Positions 32,734-36,772 of a stretch of DNA of 64,000 nucleotides are shown here, piece by piece. Location: NCBI RefSeq assembly GCF_008087625.1, contig NZ_CP042997.1, positions 7,936,001 through 8,000,000 on the forward strand, in the 5' to 3' direction. The first letter of the stretch is position 1; the number at the start of each line of letters is the position of its first letter. The notes under the pieces are model-generated. The model was not told the origin of the DNA, did not search any database, and was given only the letters and a program-made list of their open reading frames with translations. The DNA is from Aquisphaera giovannonii. Its GTDB lineage: Bacteria > Planctomycetota > Planctomycetia > Isosphaerales > Isosphaeraceae. The position numbers and the translations under genes are program-made.

Positions 32734-33692
32734 GGGGTCGCCCTCCTCGGACGTCCGTCCGGGCTGGGGTCGGGTGGCGCCGACGCCTCCTCCGGGCCCT
32801 GAACGAGCAGCCGGACGAGCGGGCTGTTCGCCGAGAGGACGACCGTCGCCCTGGGGTCCAGCAGAGCCCGGTACGACTCCAGCGAGCGCAACAGCTCGTA
32901 GAACTTCGGGTCGCGCCCGTGGGCCTCGTTGAGGATCCGCGTCGCGTCGGCCTCGGCGCGGCCCCGGATCCGCTCCGCCTCGCCTTCCGCCTGCGCGATC
33001 GTCGCCTCCCGGGCTCGCTCGGCCCGGCTCGTGATCGTGGTGTACTGCGCCTCGCCCTCGGCCCGGAGCCGCGCGGCCACCTGCCGGCGCTCGCTGCGGA
33101 TCAGCTCGAAGACGGCGGGGCGGACCTCCAGCGGGAAATTGAACCGCCTGAGGCCCAGGTCCGTGACCTCGAGCCCCAGGTCCGCCCGCGCCGCGGGTGC
33201 GATGGCCGAGAGCACCTCCTCGGCCACGGCGTCGGCCCCTCGCCGCGAGGAATCGACGCCCGCCAGGTCGGCGAGCTCTCGCCGGCCGATCGCCCCGCTC
33301 AGGACGGCGGAGACCCGCTCCTCCAGCCTCGCCTCCGCATGGTCGAGCGTCCCCGACCCGCGGAGGAATCGCACCGGGTCGGCGACTCGGTAGACGACGT
33401 AGCAGGCCACGTCCAGGCTCCGCTTGTCCCCGGTCATGACCTCGCGGGCCGGCGGGTCGTAAACGCGCAGCCGGCCGTCGACCCGCAGGGCGGACTGCCA
33501 CGGCCTCTTGGCGTGCAGGCCCGAGGCGCCGGCGCCGCCGTCGTGGACGGCCGCGACGTCCCCGAAGCTCGTGACCAGGACGAATTCCGACTCGTCCACG
33601 GCCACGACGCAGGCGGACGCGAGGGCCATCGTCGCCAGGATCGCGAGCCCGGCGGACGGCAGGGCCCTCCTCCAATTCGATCGCGGGCTCAT
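32730..33692 (-). CDS. HflC-like SPFH-domain protein
   Basis: A 320-residue SPFH protein resembling HflC. The N-terminal helix (ALPSAGLAILATMALASACVV) is followed by VDESEFVLVTSFGDV, as in HflC. The SPFH core (YVVYRVADPVRFL, then SGAIGRRELADL) leads to a coiled coil (AERAREATIAQAEGEAERIRGRAEADATRIL) and the C-terminal motif FYELLRSLESYRALLDPRATVVLS, close to the HflC end. ATG 33692 overlaps the stop of the ATPase-HflK fusion (ATGA). HflKC normally caps the FtsH protease; no ftsH lies in this window. The partner here is presumably the HflK-like half of the fusion. Confidence 0.88.
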   Translation of the reverse strand: MSPRSNWRRALPSAGLAILATMALASACVVAVDESEFVLVTSFGDVAAVHDGGAGASGLHAKRPWQSALRVDGRLRVYDPPAREVMTGDKRSLDVACYVVYRVADPVRFLRGSGTLDHAEARLEERVSAVLSGAIGRRELADLAGVDSSRRGADAVAEEVLSAIAPAARADLGLEVTDLGLRRFNFPLEVRPAVFELIRSERRQVAARLRAEGEAQYTTITSRAERAREATIAQAEGEAERIRGRAEADATRILNEAHGRDPKFYELLRSLESYRALLDPRATVVLSANSPLVRLLVQGPEEASAPPDPSPDGRPRRATP

Positions 33693-36600
33693 CGGTGGCC
33701 TCCCGAGGCGGTCGGTTGCGGTGGGCTGGGATCGTCGCCTGCCGTCGCGGCCGACGGGGCGAGCGGCGGCGGCGGGGGTGCTGTCAGGAACAGACGCTGG
33801 GGCTTCGGGGACGGGGCGGCGAGGATCAGCTTGGGCCGGTCCGCGAGGGCCTCCGAGATCGCCTCCCAGTAGCGGCGGAAGTCGCTCAGCCCGGGGGCCG
33901 AGCGGCGGGCCTCCAGCTCGTAGACGAAGGCGTCGGCCCGCCCGCCGGCGCGGGCCAGCGACGCCTCGCGGAGGGCCTCGGCGGCGCCGACCGTCGTGCT
34001 CGCCGCGGCCCCGGCCAGGGTGATCCTCTCGGAGGCCCGGGCCTCGGCCTCGATGGCCCGGCGGCGGCGGTCGCTCTCGGCCCGCGAGACGTCGCGGTAG
34101 GCGTCCAGGACCGCCGCCGGAGGCCGGATCGCGCGGAAGAGGACGGCGTCGATGCGAGCCCCGAGCCGCCCGGCGTGCGGCGCCATCTCGGCGGCGGCGG
34201 CCTTCTCCGCCTCGAGTCGGCCGGACGTCAGCAGGTCGAGCAATCTGCGCCGGGAGACGACCTTGCGGACGCTCGCCTCGGCGATCGAGGCGATCACCGC
34301 CTCCGGCCGGTCGATCCCCAGCGCGAACGTCCGCGCGGCGTCTGCCCGTCGGGCGTCGATCGCGTACTGCACCGTCGCCGAGAGCTCGAGCAACTGACCA
34401 TCGCCGGTGAGCAGGAGGCCGTCGCCCCCCGACTCCTCGAATGCCTCCGCATCCTCGCCCGCCGACGCCCCGCGGAACCCGATCTCCAGCCCGCGGACCT
34501 TCTCCGGCTCGACGGCGACGACCCTCTCGATGGGCGGCGGCCATCGCCAGTGGAAGCCGGGCCCGAGCGCCCCGCGGTACCCGCCGAACCGGCTCACCAG
34601 GCCGACCTCGCCGGGGCCGATCCGCGAGATGCCGCCCGCGGCGTAAGCCATAGCGGCCAGGCCGAGTGCCGCGCCCAGGATCGGTCGTCGCCGGCCGATC
34701 AGCCATCGCCGGGCGGCCTCCGGGTCGATCCGGTCGTCCAGGCGTCCGATCCGCTGTCCGAGCGCCCGGAGGCCGCGGACAGGGGGAAGGTCACCCCAGC
34801 CGCCGAAGGCGAGGAGCCGCATCGCGTTCAGCAGGACGAGGAGCGAGCCCGCCTGGTGGAGTACCGCCGCGGCCACCGGCCCCAGGAGCCCGAGCGAGGC
34901 CGTGAGCATGGCGACGCCGTTGAGCCCGAACGCGAACCCGACGATGTTCTGGCGGATGACCCGGACCGTCGCCCGGGACAGCTCCACCAGCTCCGGCAGG
35001 ACGCGGAGCGCATCGCCCATGAGGGCGAAGTCGCCGGCCTCGGCGGCGAGGTCCGCGCCCATGCCGCCGATCGCCAGGCCGGCGTCCGCCTGGGCGAGCG
35101 CCGGGGCGTCGTTGATGCCGTCCCCGACCATCGCAACCCGGCGGCCCGCCTGCTGACGCTCCCGGATCCAGGCTGCCTTGTCGGCCGGCATCCGCTCCGC
35201 CAGGACCGTCTCGATGTGGAGCCGCCGGGCCACCCCGCGCGCGACCGTCTCGCGGTCGCCGGTGAGGACGGCGAACTCCCCGACCTTCAGGTGCTTCAGC
35301 TCGTGGATCGCCTCGTGTGCCTCCGGCCGGATCGCATCCCGGAGCCCGATGAGGCCGACCGCGGCTCCGTCACGGGCCACGAGCAGGGGCGTCTCGCCGC
35401 GTCCGTCCAATTCGCGGAGGTTCGACTCGACGTCCTCGCCGAGCGCGACCCCGCGAGCGGCCAGCAGGCGGCGATTCCCGACCAGGATCCGGCCCGATCC
35501 CGCCCCGGCCCCCGCGGGGACGGTCGCCTCGACCCCCGCGCCGGGCAGCACGCCGACGTCCCCGGCCGGGCCCGGCTCGATCCCCCGGGTCCTCGCCCCG
35601 GCGACGACCGCGAGGGCCAGCGGGTGCCGGCTCCCCTGCTCCGCCGCCGCGGCCATGCCGAGGAGCCCGGCCTCGTCCAGCCCCCCGAGGGGCACGATGC
35701 TCGCGACCCGCGGCCTGCCCTCGGTCAGCGTGCCGGTCTTGTCGAAGGCGAAGGTGTCGCAGGCGGCCAGCCGCTCCAGGGCGTAGCCCCCCTTGATGAG
35801 CACGCCGCGGCGAGCCAGCCAGGCCATGCTCGCGAGCATCGCCGCGGGGGTCGCCAGGACGAGGGCGCACGGGCAGGCGACCACGAGCACGGCGACGGTC
35901 CGCGACCAGACGTCAGGCCATCCCCGCAGGTAGCCGGCCGCGAGGGTCAAAATCGCCGCGAGCTCGACGGCCGGCAGGAAGTACCTCGCCAGGCGGTCGG
36001 CCAGGCGTTCCACCTCGGCCTTCCTGCGACGCGCCTCCGACACGAGCCGCACCACCTGGCCGAACGTCGACTCCCGGCCCACCCTCTCCGCCCGAACCCG
36101 GATCACGCCGTACTGGTTCAGCGTGCCGGCGAAGACCGCGTCGCCCGGCCCCTTGTCCGCCGGGATGGACTCGCCGTTGATGGCCGATTGGTCGACCGTC
36201 GAACGGCCCTCCTCGATCGCGCCGTCCACCGGGATCCTCTCGCCCTCGCGGATGATCGCGAGCTCGCCGACGGCGACGTCGCGGGCCGGCACCTCCTGCT
36301 CGCGGCCGTCGCGGACCACGCGGGCCGTCCGCGGCGCCTGCCCGACGAGCCGGCCCAGGGCCTTCCGGGTCCTGGAGAACGTGAACGCCTCCAGGACCTC
36401 GCCCACGAGCGCGATGAACACGACCTCCGTCGCAACGAACGGCTGCCCGAGCACCAGTGCCGCGAGGCACGCCTGCGCCAGGGCGAAGTCGGCACCGATC
36501 CGGCGATGGACGAGCGCCTCCAGCGCCCCGTACACGATGCGGACGGCGCCGAGGACCGCCGCGACGTGCGTGAGCGAGAGCCCCGCGGGCAGGAACGGCG

Positions 36601-36772
36601 GAGGCCCGAGGCCGATCGCGTCCCTTCCCAGGTCCAGGCCCAGCAGCAGGCCGAGGATCGCCGTGAAGAGGTAGGGCCCGCGATCCCCGCCGCCCTCGCG
36701 GTCGCGCCGGGCGGCGGAGAAAGGATCCGCGTCGAGCGGGCTCAGCTCGTCGGGTTGGTACTCGCGGTGCAT
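33689..36772 (-). CDS. Heavy-metal P1B-type ATPase fused to an HflK-like SPFH domain
   Basis: A 1027-residue fusion. Residues 33-650 form a complete P1B ATPase: paired helices (33-83, 95-130), actuator loop with INGES (198-202), CPC in the transport helix (Cys300-Pro301-Cys302), phosphorylation site DKTGT (Asp344), HP motif (SRHPL, 381-385), GDGINDAP (550-557), and a last helix HQAGSLLVLLNAMRLL. It has no N-terminal HMA metal-binding domain. After a linker comes a second membrane segment (698-714), then an HflK-like SPFH domain (718-895), a coiled coil (about 895-975) and a Pro-rich tail. HQAGS differs from both the Cu-type and Zn-type signatures, so the metal is uncertain. The frame is open without interruption. 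ATG 36772 is chosen; GTG 36865, with GGAG upstream, is an alternative. First gene of the operon. Confidence 0.9.
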   Translation of the reverse strand: MHREYQPDELSPLDADPFSAARRDREGGGDRGPYLFTAILGLLLGLDLGRDAIGLGPPPFLPAGLSLTHVAAVLGAVRIVYGALEALVHRRIGADFALAQACLAALVLGQPFVATEVVFIALVGEVLEAFTFSRTRKALGRLVGQAPRTARVVRDGREQEVPARDVAVGELAIIREGERIPVDGAIEEGRSTVDQSAINGESIPADKGPGDAVFAGTLNQYGVIRVRAERVGRESTFGQVVRLVSEARRRKAEVERLADRLARYFLPAVELAAILTLAAGYLRGWPDVWSRTVAVLVVACPCALVLATPAAMLASMAWLARRGVLIKGGYALERLAACDTFAFDKTGTLTEGRPRVASIVPLGGLDEAGLLGMAAAAEQGSRHPLALAVVAGARTRGIEPGPAGDVGVLPGAGVEATVPAGAGAGSGRILVGNRRLLAARGVALGEDVESNLRELDGRGETPLLVARDGAAVGLIGLRDAIRPEAHEAIHELKHLKVGEFAVLTGDRETVARGVARRLHIETVLAERMPADKAAWIRERQQAGRRVAMVGDGINDAPALAQADAGLAIGGMGADLAAEAGDFALMGDALRVLPELVELSRATVRVIRQNIVGFAFGLNGVAMLTASLGLLGPVAAAVLHQAGSLLVLLNAMRLLAFGGWGDLPPVRGLRALGQRIGRLDDRIDPEAARRWLIGRRRPILGAALGLAAMAYAAGGISRIGPGEVGLVSRFGGYRGALGPGFHWRWPPPIERVVAVEPEKVRGLEIGFRGASAGEDAEAFEESGGDGLLLTGDGQLLELSATVQYAIDARRADAARTFALGIDRPEAVIASIAEASVRKVVSRRRLLDLLTSGRLEAEKAAAAEMAPHAGRLGARIDAVLFRAIRPPAAVLDAYRDVSRAESDRRRRAIEAEARASERITLAGAAASTTVGAAEALREASLARAGGRADAFVYELEARRSAPGLSDFRRYWEAISEALADRPKLILAAPSPKPQRLFLTAPPPPPLAPSAATAGDDPSPPQPTASGGHR

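Follow-up and report, generated by a model that had tools for sequence, protein, structure and literature searches.

The contents and purpose of the membrane cages built by SPFH proteins are an open question, the cargo usually being loose and hard to identify. The HflK/C cage of Escherichia coli is a 24-mer of alternating HflK and HflC subunits that forms a periplasmic chamber and holds its partner FtsH non-covalently (PMC12048511; PDB 7wi3, 9cz2), while in eukaryotes stomatin forms a cytosolic dome enclosing AQP1 and UT-B, likewise as non-covalent cargo and with no metal exporter involved (PMC12407830). The efflux platforms, or effluxosomes, of mycobacteria use a different scaffold, the small DUF1490 protein PacL, to cluster the P1B ATPase CtpC, a pump with CPC in its fourth membrane helix (M4) and H-N/Q..S in its sixth (M6) whose clustering partner is encoded in the same operon (PMC9374683, PMC13043812). 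Here we describe a gene in a 64,000-nucleotide stretch of the Aquisphaera giovannonii genome (NZ_CP042997.1, positions 7,936,001 to 8,000,000; hereafter the window, numbered from its first letter) that encodes a P1B metal ATPase fused in frame to an HflK-like SPFH protein. It heads a trio of SPFH genes, and the main new result is that the exporter at the head of this trio is exchanged for others in related loci.

The locus resembles each of these systems in part. Like the FtsH-HflK/C cage, it has a half that is HflK-like in sequence and predicted fold, with HflC-like and HflK-like genes adjoining; unlike that cage, it has an exporter fused to the scaffold and a third SPFH gene, and FtsH is not encoded close by. 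With the stomatin dome it would share an SPFH enclosure with transporters as cargo, although the planctomycete protein carries its pump covalently. The pump itself matches the PacL-linked type in its M4 and M6 motifs and in having candidate clustering partners in its operon, but the scaffold is a putative SPFH cage subunit and the linkage is covalent; no DUF1490 (PacL) gene was present among the neighbouring window genes scanned, the partners being SPFH proteins. Fold and catalytic motifs are those of ZntA, CopA and related P1B ATPases (PDB 4umw, 4bbj, 7qbz), from which the fusion differs in its M6 signature (HQ..S, against D-T-G in E. coli ZntA and M..SS in CopA) and in its additional ninth helix and SPFH domain. 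Stomatin domes and effluxosomes are precedents, by analogy, for an SPFH-based efflux platform and not proof of one here. Searches of the open-access literature brought up no description of a transporter-SPFH fusion, and ATPases go unmentioned in a classification of prokaryotic SPFH proteins. The exporter-scaffold proteins described below suggest a previously undescribed mode of organizing metal export.

The fusion lies in a single open frame on the minus strand that ends with TGA at 33689 and may begin at a GTG (33689-36865) or at an ATG (33689-36772). The ATG at 36772 is probably the true start, since 50 of the 52 fusions aligned for all motif, start and tail counts open there with the tetrapeptide MHRE; nothing relevant is encoded on the plus strand across 33689-36772. 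Pfam recognizes, in order, E1-E2_ATPase (1.8e-53), HAD hydrolase (2e-30) and Band_7 (6.3e-24). The match to Band_7 (PF01145; 85.4 bits, gathering cut-off 23.6) is accompanied by a predicted SPFH fold with coiled coil, and the heavy-metal ATPase model TIGR01525 of NCBIfam is passed with ease (554.3 bits, cut-off 346.25), while the score against the HflK equivalog TIGR01933 falls short (116.1 bits, cut-off 159.4). The P1B motifs CPC (300-302), DKTGT (344-348), HP (383-384) and GDGIND (550-555) are present, with CPC and DKTGT invariant among the aligned fusions and GDG[IV]ND found in all. The sequence-only reading had described a single polypeptide combining these motifs with an HflK-like SPFH domain and coiled coil behind a second membrane anchor, and the 1027-residue frame and its profile matches bear this out; the anchor corresponds to a hydrophobic ninth predicted membrane helix (residues 695-712) that follows an Arg-rich linker.

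An AlphaFold2 model of the fusion, built from the 52 fusions, had a mean pLDDT (predicted local distance difference test score) of 82. Foldseek matched the whole model to zinc and copper P1B ATPases and, because only P-type ATPases were among the matches listed, the SPFH half was modelled separately (pLDDT 90); its best match was HflK of the HflK/C cages, followed by stomatin and prohibitin complexes. By sequence, E. coli HflK is the sole PDB match of this half. P1B pumps have eight membrane helices and both termini in the cytosol. The addition of a ninth helix at 695-712 would place the SPFH domain in the periplasm, as for HflK and HflC.

The fusion is genuine and not an assembly artefact. 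It is present in many of 59 genomes of relatives, at 41-59% identity and with uninterrupted frames, which disposes of the concern, raised in the sequence-only reading, that it might exist in this assembly alone. A survey of the family covered 45 genomes, of which 28 had matches spanning the junction; two copies were present in ten of these, and in G013 and G035 the fusion was broken or cut. A scan of one genome per species yielded 80 named loci, including Tautonia sociabilis, the complete genome of Singulisphaera acidiphila, and Gemmata, and 79 of these have an open reading frame carrying both ATPase and SPFH parts. An even sample across the phylum contained the fusion in 5 of 392 genomes, and it was also found in 13 of 201 genomes of a second phylum, which the record titles give as Armatimonadota. 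Fused pumps form one clade in a tree of P1B ATPases (100/99). A frameshift or contig end interrupts the gene in a few relatives (L204, 2920-6313; L055, 6026-9314; L105); the fusion is there divided into two overlapping frames, through either sequencing error or a real frameshift. Three contigs labelled Bacteroidales or Kuenenia (L107, L062, L118) carry copies that group in the tree with those of Gemmataceae or Isosphaeraceae type; these contigs are probably misbinned.

Downstream of the fusion, each overlapping the gene before it by 4 bases (Table 1), are two further SPFH genes. The first product, P0003, exceeds the cut-off of the HflC model TIGR01932 (138.5 against 134.4 bits); the second, P0004, matches Band_7 (2.5e-21) and reaches 128 bits against TIGR01933, below the cut-off of 159. 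Among the 67 named loci with enough downstream sequence, HflC-like and HflK-like partners are both present in 43, and one of them in 5. The HflC-like partners belong to the HflC branch of an SPFH tree (100/100), and the HflK-like proteins, whether fused or encoded by the third gene, lie apart from the group of canonical HflK (98/96); canonical HflK and HflC are encoded elsewhere in the A. giovannonii genome. L152, a locus labelled ArsP, is the sole such row inside the canonical HflK group, and a permease domain is undetectable in it.

Other lineages of planctomycetes open the trio with a gene that joins a different exporter to Band_7. This exporter is an ArsP_1 permease in L131, L133-L135, L138, L140, L142 and L156, and a cation diffusion facilitator (CDF; Cation_efflux) in L129. 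In a third type, a multi-helix region without Pfam match precedes Band_7 in the first gene, and after the trio comes a fourth gene for a separate P1B ATPase, as in L130 (4909-6690), L149, L154, L157, L159, L163, L198 and L199; these fourth-gene ATPases form a clade separate from the fused ones. L200, from a genome of the second-phylum sample, combines a CDF-like region with a fourth-gene P1B ATPase. A profile comparison spoke against the unmatched membrane region being a degenerate CDF (probability 0.1%), although the region in L200 does have a significant CDF match. Thus, as judged from gene content and domain matches, several unrelated families of metal(loid) exporter are tied to one SPFH scaffold, by fusion or by operon.

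With moderate confidence, we interpret the locus as a metal efflux platform in which an HflK/C-type cage covalently holds metal(loid) exporters, a reading strengthened by the conservation of the SPFH partners and by the other exporters on the same scaffold. The three SPFH chains would co-assemble at the periplasmic side of the inner membrane, HflC-like subunits taking turns with HflK-like ones that are either fused or free; the cage would in this way hold a limited, adjustable set of pumps, in its wall or inside it. A divalent transition metal would be pumped out of the cytosol into the periplasmic space that the cage encloses, and the gain may lie in clustering and stabilizing pumps and in local handling of the exported metal, as PacL proteins provide for CtpC in mycobacteria, here by covalent linkage. 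Since related operons load other exporters on it, the scaffold looks like a general efflux chassis. More tentatively, the trio could be an export chassis in the full sense, a periplasmic SPFH cage into which a P1B ATPase, a CDF or an ArsP-type permease is built covalently and exchangeably, forming a compartment at the inner membrane that receives the pumped metal and controls its release; this is possible rather than probable. The sequence-only reading had also proposed a metal-transport microdomain, and the joining of pump to HflK-type subunit stands, with an export platform as its best reading given the partners and the other exporters. Its stoichiometry of about one pump per scaffold subunit is unsupported, because only one of the three SPFH genes carries a pump; in an alternating HflK/HflC 24-mer at most about half the subunits could do so (PMC12048511), and with one fused and one free HflK-like chain a cage might contain from zero to about twelve pumps.

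Several observations weigh against an efflux platform. The fusion is absent from a congener rated complete (G002), so its occurrence is patchy and it is dispensable to the lineage. No SPFH partner adjoins the fusion in 19 of the 67 loci, mostly of Gemmata type. The actuator loop TGES, found in 44 of the 52 aligned relatives, reads NGES in the window copy, with the catalytic Glu retained; the window copy also has a His-poor tail, and no metal regulator recurring beside the fusion was seen in neighbour clustering. Lastly, cage assembly is inferred, as are the metal and the benefit of clustering.

The metal is the least certain step. All aligned fusions retain CPC in M4 together with H-Q-x-x-S in M6, and a PacL-linked pump has HN..S at the position equivalent to HQ..S. 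CtpC, a zinc pump of this type, combines CPC in M4 with HN in M6 (PMC9374683). By this P1B6-like definition the fusions have the CPC, with HQ in place of HN in 52/52; HN is present in some of the separate fourth-gene ATPases. The short cytosolic tail contains at least six His in 19 of the 52 fusions, and His makes up 19% of the pooled N-terminal tails against 1.6% of the remainder. His/Asp-rich tails follow MHRE in many Isosphaeraceae-type copies, the window copy excepted. The CPC and HQ..S signature and the His-rich tails of relatives suggest that Zn, Cd, Co or Ni is a likelier substrate than Cu.

The HflK-like part might instead tie the pump to FtsH, which would tune pump abundance or clear damaged pumps without the scaffold itself organizing export. 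HflK and HflC are partners of FtsH in E. coli (PMC12048511), HflK is the best match of the SPFH half, and the genome has two FtsH genes as well as canonical HflK and HflC. However, no FtsH-like gene was found near any collected locus and the two FtsH genes of A. giovannonii are more than 100 kb away, leaving the FtsH link of the sequence-only reading without genomic support and weakening proteolytic control; moreover, the trio separates from canonical HflK in the tree, and the repeated recruitment of metal exporters specifically is left unexplained. We therefore regard proteolytic control as doubtful. The published FtsH-contact residue Arg191 was considered as a test of FtsH binding and dropped, as HflK of strain MG1655 has Ala191.

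It is also unlikely that the cage is primarily a chamber that receives, passes on or stores metal, for example to metallate exported enzymes, with pump clustering as a side effect. The predicted topology would place the SPFH part where metal leaves the pump, HflK/C makes a periplasmic chamber (PMC12048511), and the scaffold is common to exporters of several families; yet the window SPFH half offers no obvious metal store, as it has just three His beyond residue 690 and lacks Cys there, and neighbour clustering revealed no conserved metal-binding periplasmic partner. Less plausible still, the ATPase part could be an anchor or sensor that regulates SPFH assembly, and no working pump. The NGES of the window copy would fit such a role, but the universal retention of CPC, DKTGT and GDG[IV]ND argues against it, as does the better conservation of the ATPase half (median 51%) than of the SPFH half (34%). 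That an assembly artefact or chance read-through joined two genes has a negligible probability, the fusion being intact in many independent assemblies, including the complete S. acidiphila genome, and in two phyla, and the uninterrupted frames across the junction in relatives rule it out.

Should the efflux platform be real, such platforms would reach beyond mycobacteria into other phyla, and there be built on a scaffold of quite another kind. Here evolution appears to have welded the cargo, in the form of several kinds of metal(loid) exporter, to a cage subunit, providing a defined case in which one could measure what is caged, in what stoichiometry and to what benefit.

Table 1. Features of the fusion gene and its SPFH partner genes, in window positions.
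Feature	Position	Strand	Basis
Fusion gene, P1B metal ATPase and HflK-like SPFH protein, 1027 residues	33689..36772	-	Open frame, Pfam, NCBIfam, conserved MHRE start, model pLDDT 82
N-terminal cytosolic tail, residues 1-29, MHRE start; His-poor here, His-rich in many relatives	36686..36772	-	
P1B ATPase part, residues 30-652: eight predicted membrane helices and A, P and N domains	34817..36685	-	Pfam, NCBIfam, model, Foldseek
CPC metal-site motif, membrane helix M4, residues 300-302	35867..35875	-	Invariant in 52/52
DKTGT phosphorylation site, residues 344-348	35729..35743	-	Invariant in 52/52
HQAGS motif of M6, residues 639-643, predicted metal site	34844..34858	-	H, Q and S invariant in 52 aligned fusions
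Linker, residues 653-694, Arg-rich, poorly conserved, predicted cytosolic	34691..34816	-	
Ninth membrane helix (695-712), SPFH domain and long coiled-coil helix (to 976)	33845..34690	-	Pfam, models, PDB match
HflC-like SPFH protein P0003; start overlaps fusion stop by 4 bases (ATGA)	32730..33692	-	TIGR01932, tree
Second HflK-like SPFH protein P0004; begins with TTG, 4-base overlap with the HflC-like stop (TTGA)	31807..32733	-	Band_7, TIGR01933, tree

Clustering of neighbouring genes returned mostly antisense artefacts of high-GC DNA; the genuine recurrent neighbours are the ExbB/ExbD group and, in a few relatives, the small predicted secreted protein described below. Directly upstream of the fusion, the minus strand at 37164-40501 encodes ExbB, two ExbD proteins and a 300-residue protein without Pfam match; about five relatives also have an ExbD-like neighbour. 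Downstream of the trio, the window carries a CsbD-like stress protein with a DUF883-type glycine zipper (30867-31316, minus strand), and L057 (5835-6422) and seven relatives encode a small predicted secreted protein of about 200 residues with a weak DUF4878 match.

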